Virus record (IMG/VR): IMGVR_UViG_3300005294_000849
Location: 10,292-37,189 of that record
Direction: 5' to 3' (one strand)
Length of the DNA: 26,898 nt
Origin: a virus
Shown: positions 21,997 through 26,898 of the stretch, one piece after another
Layout: every line of letters begins with the position of its first letter
How positions within the stretch are numbered: position 1 is the stretch's first letter
Notes under the pieces: model-generated
The model's input: the letters and a program-made list of their open reading frames with translations, nothing else
Database searches by the model: none
Told to the model about the DNA's origin: nothing
Program-made: the position numbers and the translations under genes

Positions 21997-22314
21997 TCAT
22001 CTCGACCTCCGCTTCGAGACTTCATCTGCTCCTGGCGGCCGAACCCTAACCACCTGAAGCGGACCAACTCGCCAGCACATCTGCGAAACTCCCCATCTTT
22101 CAAGCCCTCGGAATTCTTCTCGCTCCACGGTGACCAACACACTGTTCGATTCGGATTCCACCTTGACCAGTTTCTCGAAGGCACCAAATAACTCGATGCC
22201 TCCACCGACGTGACTCTGTGCCAAATCTCTGGCTGGGATATTTTCAACCTCAGGAATTTCCAGAGTCTCCACAACGTCGCCCTCAGGCTCATCGGAACTC
22301 TTGAACCAACCCAT
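21997..22314 (-). CDS. Hypothetical acidic protein downstream of the Cro-like gene
   Basis: 105 aa; ATG 22314 follows GGAGGTG with ideal spacing; longer frames enter the upstream HTH gene. The sequence is MGWFKSSDEPEGDVVETLEI, LAQSHVGGGIELFGAFEKLV, NSVLVTVEREEFRGLERWGV, and ends RVRPPGADEVSKRRSR. A strand-rich middle with acidic N terminus and basic C terminus is visible. No known domain. It is the second gene of the leftward early transcript after the Cro-like HTH protein; its end is convergent with the plus-strand membrane-anchored gene. Confidence 0.7.
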   Translation of the reverse strand: MGWFKSSDEPEGDVVETLEIPEVENIPARDLAQSHVGGGIELFGAFEKLVKVESESNSVLVTVEREEFRGLERWGVSQMCWRVGPLQVVRVRPPGADEVSKRRSR

Positions 22315-22384
22315 CACGCCACCTCCTTTTCCATTTCTTCGTTCCATGCGTCGCATGCCTGACCGGCGAGCGCTGATGGATCGG

Positions 22385-22639
22385 TCATGCTGTCCTCTTT
22401 CGCTCCACATCGTGTTCAGCAAAATCTGACACATGAGTCAAAAAAAGATCTTCAACTCCGACGCCGAGGAATTTTGCTATTCGCAAGGCTGGCTCAGGCT
22501 CCAGGGTCTTCACTTCTCCGCTTACTAGCCGATTCATATAGCTATGAGACTTCCAGCCCGCCGCCTTTGCTAAGCCGCGGTTGGAAACTTCCTGAACGAT
22601 CATGAGTCGCTGGAGCATCTTTCTGTCTCGGAGTTCCAT
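22385..22639 (-). CDS. XRE-type HTH protein, Cro-like
   Basis: 84 aa; ATG 22639 follows GGAGG by seven bases (a longer frame to 22681 would start inside the promoter region). The fold is a single Cro/C1-type helix-turn-helix: RLMIVQEVSNRGLAKAAGWK SH then SYMNRLVSGEVKTLEPEPAL and RIAKFLGVGVEDLF. It diverges from the plus-strand repressor gene across a 249-bp control region, the standard layout of a lytic regulator opposite a repressor. Its predicted promoter overlaps a GTGTCCA box. I infer a Cro- or early-activator-like role. Confidence 0.88.
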   Translation of the reverse strand: MELRDRKMLQRLMIVQEVSNRGLAKAAGWKSHSYMNRLVSGEVKTLEPEPALRIAKFLGVGVEDLFLTHVSDFAEHDVERKRTA

Positions 22640-22888
22640 CCAGAGACCTCCAATTGCTCGGGGGTGTTTGACAATGTTCACTGTACCGCCTCTCGTTACG
22701 TCGTGTCCAGTAAAACGTTACTTGATAATTTCTCTAGTGTCCACCCTGCAAGCCGACTTTTTCCCGGTATCCACGTAGAACGGGGCATCGAACGGATATA
22801 AATGGTAAATTTCTAGTGTCCAGCATGCCGTTACACCCGGTGTCCGCGATGTTTGAATTTCCGTCCACTCCTAGTCCAAGGTTGCTTC
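22640..22888. promoter_or_regulatory. Divergent control region with GTGTCCA and CGTTAC repeats (genetic switch)
   Basis: 249 bp between the two divergent HTH genes. GTGTCCA is found at 22703-22709, 22737-22743 and 22816-22822 (the last two extended to CTAGTGTCCA), with variants GTGTCCG at 22840-22846 and GTATCCA at 22767-22773. CGTTAC occurs at 22694-22699, 22716-22721 and 22829-22834. All are in one orientation. For the plus-strand repressor a -10-like TATAAA is at 22797-22802 without a clear -35. These repeats are the best candidates for repressor and Cro operators. No gene is seen in this stretch. Confidence 0.7.
22680..22709 (-). promoter_or_regulatory. Candidate leftward early promoter overlapping a GTGTCCA box
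   Basis: On the minus strand TGGACA (22704-22709) is one base from the -35 consensus and is followed after 18 bp by TACAGT (22680-22685), a TANNNT -10. Transcription would start near 22673, about 35 bases before the Cro-like ATG (22639). The -35 box is itself the complement of a GTGTCCA repeat, so a repressor bound there would block polymerase. Confidence 0.55.
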
Positions 22889-23521
22889 GTGAACGAAATC
22901 CACCCACTTGGGGAATTGCTCCAAGAAGTCATGGACCGCAACAGCTGGTCGCTGAGGGCCTTATCCTCGCGAGCAGATAGCTTGGGATTCAAAATGAGCC
23001 ATTCAAACTTTGGCCGGCTGAAGGATGAGCCGGTTTCAAGCATGAAAGGCGAGACGATCAAGATGCTCGCCCAGGTCCTCAAAGTTTCTGAGGCTCAGGT
23101 AGCTGATGCGGTACTAGCTTCTATGGGGATTGACTCAAGCGCAGGCAAGGAGCAGCCGGCTCTAGCTGAGTTCGTTCGCACTTCTAGTGAAGTGAGCGAT
23201 CGCGATCAACGGATACTCCTATCCGTGATCGACGCGATGCGCGACAAGGAAAGCGGAACCAATGGACAACACGACAACCAGGACCCCAACCCACCTAAGC
23301 CACTCCGAGCAGTGGCGCCCACGAGTGACGCTAGCCAGGGACAGAAGACCGAGCCTGAGGGCAGCATCATTGAATTCCATGGTGCCGAAGCTCTGGAGTA
23401 CCCGGCGCCACCTATTGAATCTTTAGCAGCACACCCAAAGGTGAAGACCGTACGGGAACAGCTCGACGAACAAACCGACGAGCGCTACGCAGATAAACAA
23501 GGCCCGAGGGATGAAGGATGA
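22889..23521 (+). CDS. XRE-like prophage repressor
   Basis: 210 aa; I chose GTG 22889 with AAGG seven bases upstream; a TTG at 22853 is the alternative. Residues ~5-75 hold an HTH domain: LGELLQEVMDRNSWSLRALS, then SRADSLGFKMSHSNFGRLKD and ETIKMLAQVLKVSEAQVADA. The remainder is acidic/Pro-rich and poorly ordered (NGQHDNQDPNPPKPLRAV, EGSIIEFHGAEALEYPAPPI), ending with a charged tail. There is no LexA-type peptidase, so it is not self-cleaving, in agreement with the ImmA-type protease two genes downstream. It overlaps the next gene as ATGA, tying cargo expression to the lysogenic state. Confidence 0.85.
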   Translation: MNEIHPLGELLQEVMDRNSWSLRALSSRADSLGFKMSHSNFGRLKDEPVSSMKGETIKMLAQVLKVSEAQVADAVLASMGIDSSAGKEQPALAEFVRTSSEVSDRDQRILLSVIDAMRDKESGTNGQHDNQDPNPPKPLRAVAPTSDASQGQKTEPEGSIIEFHGAEALEYPAPPIESLAAHPKVKTVREQLDEQTDERYADKQGPRDEG

Positions 23522-24081
23522 CTGAACCATCTCTACTCACACTAGATAGCCCGTTGCTCCTGTCACCCCCGGGCCGATCCCGTTTAACCTTTAATGATTT
23601 CGAGAATCAATATGGTCCTGGCACGATTTATTGCGGTAATGATCGGCGTCAACAGATTTGGGACCATTTCGTCAAGGCAACTGCCATGCTCAGAGACTCC
23701 TTGCCAATTGCGGCCGTCTGGATTGGTGGATCATTTGTGACGAATAAACCAGAGCCAAATGACATCGATGCGGTGTATATTCTGAATCAGAACAAGTATT
23801 CGACTCTTGATGATTTCGGGAAGCGGCGTATTGCCGGATTTGCTGAGGATGGTTGGCTATTTGATCGAGGTATCCGAGTCGACAGTCACGTAGTTGACTG
23901 GTTTCCGCACAGTGAATTGGACATGGAAGACCCCTCACAGGGGCCGTATCTAAAATCTCGTGGCTATTGGGATGATTTTCTACAGCGATATGCCGTCGAT
24001 AAGCTTGCTGAATTGACCGAAGACAGCGCGATCCCAAAACGAGGTTACTTGGAGGTGATTCTGGATGGGTATGACTCCTGA
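23518..24081 (+). CDS. Nucleotidyltransferase-fold protein (DUF6932-like)
   Basis: 187 aa; its ATG overlaps the repressor stop (ATGA). The core IAAVWIGGSFVTNKPEPNDI carries the nucleotidyltransferase signature: G70-G71-S72 followed by D82-I83-D84 as metal ligands, in the GSFVT-K-PEPNDID form I associate with the DUF6932 family. A third acidic residue may be in RVDSHVVDWFP (D121-D127 region). The C-terminal part (YWDDFLQRYAVDKLAELTED and KRGYLEVIL) is unrecognised. Similar minimal nucleotidyltransferases modify toxins, tRNAs or small molecules in toxin-antitoxin and defence loci. The DNA looks richer in A/T than the structural genes. Overlaps the next gene by 17 bases; the two probably act together. 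Confidence 0.8.
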   Translation: MTEPSLLTLDSPLLLSPPGRSRLTFNDFENQYGPGTIYCGNDRRQQIWDHFVKATAMLRDSLPIAAVWIGGSFVTNKPEPNDIDAVYILNQNKYSTLDDFGKRRIAGFAEDGWLFDRGIRVDSHVVDWFPHSELDMEDPSQGPYLKSRGYWDDFLQRYAVDKLAELTEDSAIPKRGYLEVILDGYDS

Positions 24082-24997
24082 TGATGCAATATGGGCATCT
24101 CTGAATTTCGAAGACTTGCCGGTATTCGATAGCGCCCAGGATCTTTCCCGATACAGCATCGAAACACATCAAGGCCACAACCGATTGGCGCGCACCAAAC
24201 ATAGCCGAGGCTTCCTGCGTCTCGCTGGGCCCGGTGTTGATGGACATCAGGCTGATGCAGCGCAGGCCTTCGCCGTGGGCATCGCGTTCCAAAAGGTAAT
24301 AACTGCATTCGGCTCGGCTCTGCATGGTGCGAAGGCATCTATTTCAAAAATTGCTGAACAACAGACTCGACTCCGTCTAGATGGCTCTCCTGCTCCCGGC
24401 TCTATCATTTTCAATCTCGTTGCAGCCTCTACGCCAGCCGACGAGTTACGCCCAAACGGCGAATTATTCGATAAAAATAACGAGCTGTTGGTCGATCGTT
24501 CATTTGATGCCTTGAACCAGGTCTTTTCTCCAAGTGAATCATTCGAAGATCGGGAAACTCTCGTTACGCAACTTGAAGACCTCGGCCCGCAAGCAGCAAA
24601 GGCATTGCGCTCTTTCGTGACGATCGTTGGGGACCATTATTTCGACATGGAACTTAAGTGGCAACAGCCTTTAGCTCCCGCCTTGCACTGGTCCGTGCCT
24701 ACCTTGAAATCGCAGATGCTGCGTGACTTTATCGCATTGAACCGACTTGACGAAGTCCCAGTTACGCTAACTGGGCGCTTGCATACGGTATCAATTAGCA
24801 ATAAATGGTCGCTGGTATCGGATGAGTTTGGAAAAATTACTCTTGATTTGGCTGACCTGACGGAAAGAATTAGTCGATCCAGCTTCCCCGCTGGGTCCCT
24901 AGTCGAGGCCAACGCCATGATGACGCAAAGCGAAGGGGCAGGATCCAAAGCTAAACGCGACTTTAGAGTTACCAGCCTGAGGGCATTGCAAGACTGA
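24065..24997 (+). CDS. Unrecognised 310-aa protein paired with the nucleotidyltransferase
   Basis: 310 aa, beginning inside the end of the nucleotidyltransferase gene (17-base overlap). No known family. The N terminus (residues 14-45: NFEDLPVFDSAQDLSRYSIE) may be a short extended region; residues ~65-105 are helical (AAQAFAVGIAFQKVITAFGS). A strand GSIIFNLVAA follows at ~112-121. Residues ~165-195 are helical (QAAKALRSFVTIVGDHYFDM). The C-terminal third (VPVTLTGRLHTVSISNKWSL, EFGKITLDLADLTER, then SFPAGSLVEANAMM) looks like a beta barrel, perhaps OB-like, followed by a basic SKAKRDFRVTSLRAL tail. Suggested role: partner, target or effector of the nucleotidyltransferase. No toxin, protease or membrane motif is visible. 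Confidence 0.75.
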   Translation: MGMTPDDAIWASLNFEDLPVFDSAQDLSRYSIETHQGHNRLARTKHSRGFLRLAGPGVDGHQADAAQAFAVGIAFQKVITAFGSALHGAKASISKIAEQQTRLRLDGSPAPGSIIFNLVAASTPADELRPNGELFDKNNELLVDRSFDALNQVFSPSESFEDRETLVTQLEDLGPQAAKALRSFVTIVGDHYFDMELKWQQPLAPALHWSVPTLKSQMLRDFIALNRLDEVPVTLTGRLHTVSISNKWSLVSDEFGKITLDLADLTERISRSSFPAGSLVEANAMMTQSEGAGSKAKRDFRVTSLRALQD

Positions 24998-25061
24998 GTT
25001 ATTTTACTTATCCCATTGCCCCGACAGTTTGAACCGTCACGTTGTCACATTAACTTCACAC

Positions 25062-25089
25062 CATAGTTCGAACATATGTTCGAACTATG
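25062..25089. promoter_or_regulatory. Perfect 28-bp palindrome containing a consensus SOS (LexA) box
   Basis: Bases 25062-25089 are a perfect palindrome whose centre, TCGAAC-ATAT-GTTCGA (25068-25083), matches the SOS box of mycobacteria and related Actinobacteria, TCGAAC-N4-GTTCGA. It ends on the ATG of the ImmA-type protease gene. A TATGTT element (25075-25080) inside the box sits exactly -12 to -7 relative to that ATG, so a leaderless transcript beginning at the start codon is possible. LexA bound here would cover promoter and start. Confidence 0.9.
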
Positions 25090-25488
25090 CAGAATGTATG
25101 GGGCATGCTGCGCTCACTCGCGCACGTAGCAATTATTTGGACTAGACCACACCCAGAAGTAGTAGCCGCGTCGGACGGTCGTCGGATCTGGATTGACCCA
25201 GCGCTGACGACCGCCGAGCAGCACTGCTTCTTGGCACACGAAGCAATACACATCAAGCACGGGCACACTACGTGCCAGACACCAGCCGTTGAACGGCAAG
25301 TCTGCCTAGAGGTCGCTCGATTCTTGATCAGCTTCGAGGCATTACAGAAGGTCGCGGGCTGGTCCCGCTGCCCTATTGAAATAGCAGAGGAACTCGGCGT
25401 CACCGAGGAAGTACTCCTTGACCGGTTCGCCACCTTGGACGGCCAGCAGATCCAAGCGCTCTGGCCACCAGGTGAGCACATCGCCTAA
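25087..25488 (+). CDS. ImmA/IrrE-type metallopeptidase under SOS control
   Basis: 133 aa, short for the family. The zinc-protease motif is HEAIH (H51, E52, H55) in FLAHEAIHIKHGH, with a likely third ligand in the following helix (VERQVCLEVARFLISFEA), as in ImmA/IrrE proteins. The first half carries RPHPEVVAASDGRRIWIDPA, the beta part of the fold. The C terminus is an extra helical segment with IEIAEELGVTEEVLLDRFAT. ATG 25087 has no ribosome binding site; a leaderless message or ATG 25105 are both possible. ImmA-type proteases cleave prophage or ICE repressors; here the HTH repressor is three genes upstream. A palindromic SOS box overlaps its start. Confidence 0.9.
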   Translation: MQNVWGMLRSLAHVAIIWTRPHPEVVAASDGRRIWIDPALTTAEQHCFLAHEAIHIKHGHTTCQTPAVERQVCLEVARFLISFEALQKVAGWSRCPIEIAEELGVTEEVLLDRFATLDGQQIQALWPPGEHIA

Positions 25489-25492
25489 CCAC

Positions 25493-25501
25493 TTATCCAC
25501 A
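25493..25501 (+). promoter_or_regulatory. Isolated perfect DnaA-box sequence
   Basis: TTATCCACA stands just after the ImmA-type gene and before the integrase. It equals the consensus DnaA box, but only one copy was seen and no AT-rich unwinding region lies beside it. This may be chance. The rest of the 78-bp gap holds only the integrase ribosome binding site AAGGAGG. Confidence 0.35.
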
Positions 25502-25566
25502 ATCCGTAATCCCACCGCGTCAAGGGGTCTATTTGGCGCGCACACTTTCCCCAAGGAGGGAAACTC

Positions 25567-26898
25567 ATGGATACCCCAGAGCCCAGGGCCAAGCGAGGCA
25601 ACCAAGAAGGTTCCGAGCCCCGCATCCGAAAGGACGGGCGCTGGCAAGCTAACTACATCGTCGGATACAAACCCAGCGGCCAACCAATACGAAGTTCGGC
25701 CTACGGTAAGACCAAGGCCGAATGCACACGCAAACTCCAAAAAGCTCTGCGTGAAGTTCACGCCGGAGACGTCACTATTGGACTGAAACCTCGGCTGATT
25801 GAATGGCTTGACTACTGGCTGACCAACGTAGCTCCTGCCACAGCTAAGAGCCCACAATCGCGCAAGACTTATCGAAACAGGATCAACAACCATATCCGGC
25901 CACACCGGCTAGCAGGCAAGCGCCTGGACAAGCTCACCCCTACAGACTTCGAAACCATCTACGCCACCATGCGCGAGGCGTCGCTTTCGGAATCCAGCAT
26001 CTCCGGACTGCATGCAATTCTCCGGCGAGCGCTGAATATTGCTGTGAAGCGTGGACTGCTGGGTAAGAATCCGTTGCTGATGCTGGATGCTCCTGTTCCT
26101 GCTGCGTTCGAACCGCAAGTGTATTCGACGGATGAAGTGCGGCGAATGATTTCGGCAGCGGAGGAGCGTGACGATGAAGCGCGGTGGCTGTTGAATCTCA
26201 TGCTTGGTCCGCGGCAGGGTGAGGCGCTAGGGCTCACTTGGTCTGATATTGATTTCAAGGCGGGAAAGATCCGGATAGAGAGGGAGCTGTTTGTGCTTCC
26301 GTGGGAGCATGGCTGCAATGCGGACGATCCGAGCGATACGAAGTGCGGCCGGAAGTTCGGACGGCACTGCCCGATGCGTCATAGCGGCGGTTACTTCACA
26401 GGCCCGCCTAAGAGCTCAGCGGGTGTTCGGCGTGTAACTATGCCCTCCCCCTTGCGGAAGTCGCTCCTGCGCCACTCAGAGACTCAGCGAACCATTCGCG
26501 AGCATGCGCCGTGGAGTCCTTGGGTTGACCAAGACGGGGTTGAGCGGGATCTGGTCTTCTGCCGGCAACGCGGTTTGCCGATCTATCCGAAGGCGGACTG
26601 GCTCGCGTGGCGATCGCTTCTCGAGGATGCAAAGGTTCCGGTAGGGCGACCCCACGACGGCCGGCACACAGCGGCCACCACCATGCTTCTCCTGGGTGTG
26701 GATCAGCGAGTGGTTATGGAGATCCTTGGCTGGTCGCAGATCTCCATGCTCCAGCGATATCAACACGTACTCGACGAGATGCACCAGGATGTGGCTGACA
26801 GGCTCACCGATCACTGGACCACCCCGGAACCGGTGCCACCAAGCAATGTGATTTCCCTTCAGGACCGATTCAAGAAGCGCGGATCTTTCGGGGCCTGA
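25567..26898 (+). CDS. int: Tyrosine-type phage integrase
   Basis: 443 aa; ATG 25567 follows AAGGAGG by seven bases and the stop is the last codon of the window. Residues 1-70 form an AP2-like arm-binding domain (IRKDGRWQANYIVGYKPSGQ, AYGKTKAECTRKLQKALREV), then an SAM-like core-binding domain (~75-175) and the catalytic domain. Catalytic residues: R216 (LGPRQGEALGL), K282 (PPKSSAGVR), H363xxR366 (RPHDGRHTAA), W389 in place of the usual His (ILGWSQISM) and nucleophile Y398 (LQRYQHV). A Cys/His insertion at 250-272 (C250, C260, H267, C268, H272) may bind zinc; similar inserts occur in actinophage integrases. attP is probably close by but was not identified. Confidence 0.97.
   Translation: MDTPEPRAKRGNQEGSEPRIRKDGRWQANYIVGYKPSGQPIRSSAYGKTKAECTRKLQKALREVHAGDVTIGLKPRLIEWLDYWLTNVAPATAKSPQSRKTYRNRINNHIRPHRLAGKRLDKLTPTDFETIYATMREASLSESSISGLHAILRRALNIAVKRGLLGKNPLLMLDAPVPAAFEPQVYSTDEVRRMISAAEERDDEARWLLNLMLGPRQGEALGLTWSDIDFKAGKIRIERELFVLPWEHGCNADDPSDTKCGRKFGRHCPMRHSGGYFTGPPKSSAGVRRVTMPSPLRKSLLRHSETQRTIREHAPWSPWVDQDGVERDLVFCRQRGLPIYPKADWLAWRSLLEDAKVPVGRPHDGRHTAATTMLLLGVDQRVVMEILGWSQISMLQRYQHVLDEMHQDVADRLTDHWTTPEPVPPSNVISLQDRFKKRGSFGA

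Follow-up and report, generated by a model that had tools for sequence, protein, structure and literature searches.

A LexA box on the promoter of an ImmA-like protease gene probably couples host DNA damage to induction of an actinobacterial prophage

ImmA-type proteases are found in ICEBs1 and many phages. In ICEBs1 (ImmR/ImmA) and in ImmAR-type phages, as in the virus described here, an M78 (DUF955) metalloprotease and an HTH repressor are encoded in the lysogeny locus. The Deinococcus pair IrrE/PprI-DdrO likewise consists of an M78 protease and an HTH repressor, which is cleaved there after DNA damage; however, IrrE/PprI is activated after its synthesis (zinc, ssDNA), acts on a host regulon and is LexA-independent. 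The accessible part of a report on the Listeria monocin describes MpaR, a DUF955 metalloprotease that removes CI-like phage repressors, and finds that excision of a Listeria prophage after mitomycin C needed LexA cleavage (PMC6872733). The mpaR gene accompanies the repressor gene and is under autoregulation by the repressor, and a LexA box on mpaR is not reported in that part of the source (PMC6872733). For a Microbacterium prophage an IrrE/ImmA gene has been noted, its promoter not being discussed in the accessible part of the account (PMC9030533). Direct control of phage genes by LexA is known from a different class of proteins, the antirepressors Tum of coliphage 186, AntC of N15, and GfoA/GfhA of the Salmonella Gifsy prophages (PMC3121763).

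The window analyzed here is the last 26.9 kb of a 37.2-kb virus record, and the virus appears to be a prophage of soil bacteria of the Arthrobacter/Glutamicibacter group. Related loci are designated by L numbers. The lysogeny region of the window contains the following features.

22385–22681, minus strand: Cro-like HTH gene, divergent
22703–22845, plus strand: four GTGTCC repeats (22703, 22737, 22816, and 22840), candidate phage-repressor operators, unlike the box
22889–23521, plus strand: prophage HTH repressor gene with no self-cleavage domain, GTG start at 22889
23303–23479, plus strand: codons of the repressor C-terminal tail, common to differing DNA-binding types, candidate ImmA recognition or cleavage region
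23518–24997, plus strand: cargo in the repressor-immA interval, a DUF6932 nucleotidyltransferase-like gene and its partner (PADLOC candidates PDC-M63A/B)
25062–25089, no strand: perfect 28-bp palindrome CATAGTTCGAACATATGTTCGAACTATG, of which the final three bases are the immA ATG
25068–25083, no strand: LexA (SOS) box TCGAACATATGTTCGA, 12/12 to the actinobacterial motif, candidate operator
25075–25080, plus strand: −10-like TATGTT, predicted leaderless promoter within the box, exactly 6 nt before the ATG
25087–25488, plus strand: predicted immA-like gene for a Peptidase_M78 (ImmA/IrrE) metalloprotease of 133 aa, HEAIH at residues 51–55
25567–26898, plus strand: tyrosine integrase gene, following immA after 78 bp, candidate for SOS co-transcription with it

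The open reading frame at 25087–25488 scores above the cut-off set by Pfam for Peptidase_M78 (27 versus 22 bits, E 4e-6) and matches the PHROGs family "metallo-protease" (E 2e-13), and the original prediction of a zinc-protease gene agrees with both matches and with the position of the HEAIH motif. His-51, Glu-52, His-55, Glu-69, and Glu-75 are invariant in 12 relatives, comprising HEXXH and downstream acidic residues. The AF2 model is partial, with an N-terminal part that is not confident; Foldseek returned no significant PDB match, and a search by sequence found no solved relative. The likely membership in the ImmA family is indicated by Pfam and PHROGs.

The palindrome is exact at 25062–25089 and ends, as first claimed, on the ATG of this reading frame; its center reads TCGAAC-ATAT-GTTCGA. 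In a pattern search of the whole 37.2-kb record, the perfect TCGAACN4GTTCGA occurs once, at 25068–25083, and by simple arithmetic a match to 12 specified bases is expected by chance ∼0.002 times in 26.9 kb. Full 28-bp symmetry is found in the window and L006 only, with symmetry ending at 12 bp in most other relatives. Most relatives lack the outer 6 + 6 bp of the palindrome emphasized in the original prediction; conservation applies to the 16-bp box and not to the 28-mer. L006/L013 have a second perfect 28-bp palindrome, CATGATTCGAATATATATTCGAATCATG, ending on the immA ATG, with the box altered symmetrically (C-to-T/G-to-A) and with an outer sequence that in L006 differs from that of the window; the recA box in the L006/L013 host likewise has an ATTCG right half.

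The nearest relatives of this immA are located on IMG/VR contigs, in Arthrobacter sp. MYb213, and in three Glutamicibacter species, and from these relatives we infer a host within the Micrococcaceae. The host boxes were read in the four genomes carrying sister prophages (Arthrobacter sp. MYb213 and the three Glutamicibacter), all of which have lexA. A TCGAAC-N4-GTTCGA site with 11–12/12 matches lies 238–240 bp before the lexA match in each of the four; it is TCGAACACTTGTTCGA, at 238 bp, in two carriers and an 11/12 site in the other two. A TCGAACATCTGTTCGG-type site (10–11/12) lies 179–204 bp before the recA match, again in 4/4, and in G. nicotianae TCGAACACATGTTCGA precedes a dnaE2 operon, dnaE2 having been identified from its translated start. 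The LexA consensus of Streptomyces venezuelae is tCGAAC-N4-GNNCGa (PMC9380542). The presence of the same motif before the host lexA, recA, and dnaE2 genes and in the Streptomyces consensus indicates that the box is of the host's own operator type, and LexA very probably binds 25068–25083.

The predicted promoter lies inside this box. The layout is constant in the box-carrying group, where TATGTT or TATATT is followed after 6–7 nt by ATG, and homologues without the box have TANNNT ∼6 nt ahead of the start codon, in many cases preceded by TGTCGG. The spacing for a leaderless start that was noted originally is thus constant in relatives, and the shared layout of the box-less homologues suggests an ancestral leaderless promoter to which the left half-site TCGAAC was added. 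MFDPW is the start of many ImmA proteins and is coded by ATGTTCGA, which is in itself a right LexA half-site, and the full boxes at −8 (L009, L191, and L293) are built on this MFD-coding ATGTTCGA. Because such a start is already a half-site, it may offer an easy path to repeated evolution of the box. A promoter and terminator scan gave nothing informative near immA, its strict −35/−10 rule being one that does not cover the promoter predicted here.

A search of related prophages for a box before immA, suggested alongside the original prediction, found one at the start in 12/12 distinct close relatives, the window counted among them; the strongest match to the LexA box in the entire 6–12-kb locus is at −19/−20 of immA, and at −8 in L009. 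Away from immA starts, matches of at least 10/12 occur at 8 of 183,375 positions in the related loci, and 0.11 hits would be expected in the immA start windows. A hit is present there in 18 of 38 loci, in 15 of them at −19/−20, in two at −8, and in one, probably by chance, at −50. The right arm is GTTCTA, not GTTCGA, in most close relatives and the arms are TCGAAT...ATTCGA in L005, L006, and L169, variants that may lower the affinity of LexA in those relatives.

ImmA relatives were found in 48 of 295 Micrococcaceae genomes. Among distant homologues, the box is on the start in L171 (12/12) and L172 (10/12), both at −19, and in L191 (12/12, at −8), and L173 has a 12/12 box at −103 of immA. In the 30 loci inspected, a start box is absent outside the close group, L171, L172, and L191, and ImmA homologues of Gordonia, Mycobacterium, and faecal phages have no such box. 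The distant homologues that keep the same synteny without a box imply that ImmA can work without LexA control. A scan of viral contigs for a box before an ATG, which was not based on ImmA, found L293, in which the identical 16-mer is at −8 of a diverged ImmA-like gene, the other matches being mostly chance; a deeper alignment-based search for related loci gave no new viral loci. L117 has a perfect LexA box inside the repressor gene, ∼200 bp ahead of another M78 gene and also upstream of a serine-type integrase; this box may be due to chance, and L117 was left out of the box-carrying count. Box presence requires five changes on the ImmA tree, and the well-supported branches by themselves demand a minimum of two changes in the −19 group and of three in the −8 rows; some rows are long-branched, making the number of origins only approximate. 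The LexA box on immA appears to have evolved more than once. The host lexA, recA, and dnaE2 boxes, the presence of the box in every close relative, and its recurrence in distant ones bear out the original description of a textbook SOS box.

The putative target of the protease is the repressor encoded at 22889–23521. Family searches with this protein give an HTH only, in agreement with the earlier claim that it has no self-cleavage domain: an HTH_26-like HTH was found at E 0.004, below the Pfam cut-off, a PHROG "transcriptional repressor" at E 6e-8, and no Peptidase_S24 anywhere in the 37.2-kb record. The AF2 model consists of the HTH, a long helix, and a largely disordered C-terminal tail. Across the close relatives, all of which encode the repressor, the DNA-binding halves are of three types, 21–34% identical between types, and the C-terminal tails are 38–54% identical across the types, with the consensus AVAP..D...GQKT..GITELHG.EA..YP.PPIEQLAAHPKVKT.REQLDE. 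The tail is the best candidate for recognition by ImmA. It is also present beside some box-less immA genes (L202, L208, and L213), so it marks partnership with ImmA and not LexA control.

The switch region differs with the repressor type. The spacing of the GTGTCC repeats (34, 79, and 24) is also found in L001, L002, and L012, and in repressors of type I the repeats are at −150, −116, −37, and −13 of the repressor reading frame in the window, L002, and L012, with a shifted register in L001. Loci with other repressor types have different switch repeats and an unchanged box, and in type I loci no GTGTCC lies closer to the immA start than 150 bp. With three DNA-binding types and differing repeats beside a constant box, a host factor is the simplest reader of the box. 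These sequence comparisons support the identity of the box and its placement over the promoter, and they support a conserved site that is independent of the phage operator.

The gene order Cro-like gene, repressor, cargo, immA, and integrase is kept in nearly all loci. The integrase is reversed in L199, L200, and L201, and L009 has no cargo, immA being located directly 3′ of the repressor. The cargo is swapped in almost every relative, with PD-Lambda-5 in L008 and HipA-like and PDC-M66 in L003/L005. The slot at 23518–24997 is a defence hotspot of candidate defence genes, flanked by the repressor and the predicted SOS-controlled immA.

In the circuit that we propose, host LexA on 25068–25083 would cover the −10 element and the start of the immA promoter in the lysogen, keeping the protease gene off. 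DNA damage would activate RecA, and the self-cleavage of LexA would allow a leaderless immA mRNA to be made. ImmA would then inactivate the repressor, which cannot cleave itself, probably by cutting or docking at its disordered C-terminal tail, and loss of the repressor would free the divergent Cro-like and early genes. What we infer here is that LexA occupies the box, that the protease is active and cleaves the repressor, and that the prophage is induced, with synteny and the common repressor tail favoring the step from protease through repressor to induction. We put the probability of the whole circuit, from the box to prophage induction, at roughly 0.8; host DNA damage probably leads to production of the protease and through it to the awakening of the virus.

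In one alternative the switch consists of more than the box, RecA or ssDNA also activating ImmA post-translationally and LexA control raising its dose. In the accessible parts of two sources, RecA or ssDNA is considered to be the signal for ImmA-type and PprI proteases (PMC12637031; PMC10904395), and box-less ImmA homologues must have other control; however, a box over the promoter would leave little ImmA for activation in undamaged cells, and this dual control is a tentative possibility. An SOS promoter that drives an immA-integrase operon, damage supplying the excision enzyme along with the protease, would be compatible with LexA-driven induction through ImmA. The integrase gene follows immA at 78 bp on the same strand, the gap at 25489–25566 contains a strong ribosome-binding-like AAGGAGG, and a simple, crude scan of 22300–25700 gave no promoter-like site on the plus strand. 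Against this, the integrase is needed on infection too and has the opposite orientation in L199, L200, and L201, which leaves such an operon possible but doubtful.

The box could also control an ImmA that mainly targets repressors of other prophages, a cargo or defence protein, or a host factor. The cargo slot adjoins immA, and the tail common to heteroimmune phages makes cross-targets plausible, as in the Gifsy cross-talk (PMC3121763), but the repressor and ImmA are found together in every close relative while the cargo varies, and in L009 there is none; a main target other than the phage's own repressor is unlikely. The 28-bp palindrome might instead function chiefly in the RNA, as a hairpin that masks the immA start codon when transcription reads through. 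The palindrome RNA folds well (z −3.3), ATG included, and the hairpin is real in the window; L006, with another outer sequence, also has a perfect 28-bp palindrome. However, the outer arms and the pairing of the ATG are not kept in most relatives and a leaderless immA mRNA would not include the hairpin, and for lack of conserved outer pairing this role, very improbable, was rejected. An operator of the phage's own repressor in place of a LexA site, although ImmR-type repressors usually control their own repressor-protease genes and a repressor gene is nearby, was rejected as scarcely credible because the box stays constant and equals the host lexA/recA/dnaE2 motif while the HTH types and the switch repeats, AGTGTCC in type I, vary and GTGTCC is not near the immA start.

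If LexA-driven induction through ImmA is correct, it provides a possible DNA-damage sensing route for actinobacterial prophages whose repressors cannot self-cleave. The common repressor tail offers a specific candidate target for the protease and a possible basis for cross-induction of unrelated prophages, since repressors of different immunity types that share one C-terminal tail could be cross-cleaved. More speculatively, the LexA-to-ImmA wiring might be a recurrent induction module of actinobacterial prophages, in which one SOS-made ImmA co-induces heteroimmune co-residents by repressor cleavage. For the many phage genes annotated as "IrrE-like", a LexA box in the promoter is a testable prediction.

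Among described phages, OneDirection and Sejanus of Gordonia/Mycobacterium have the same lysogeny locus of repressor, IrrE-like protein, and integrase, but no SOS box upstream of the IrrE-like genes. The ImmA of ICEBs1 is made with the repressor and is activated by RecA or signals, whereas the immA described here has its own predicted promoter under a LexA box. Our searches of the open-access literature turned up no description of an immA gene with a LexA box directly on it, and the arrangement that joins the two known parts, a LexA-controlled antirepressor and an ImmA-type repressor protease, was not found there either. The box and promoter parts of the originally predicted SOS-to-ImmA circuit are supported, but its logic, that of a LexA-controlled antirepressor, was already known and had been overlooked (PMC3121763). 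The likeness to Tum, AntC, and GfoA lies in the direct LexA control, predicted here, of a phage gene that inactivates a non-self-cleaving repressor. In contrast to these small repressor-binding proteins, the product in the present locus, where the repressor and the integrase are encoded alongside it, is predicted to be a zinc metalloprotease.
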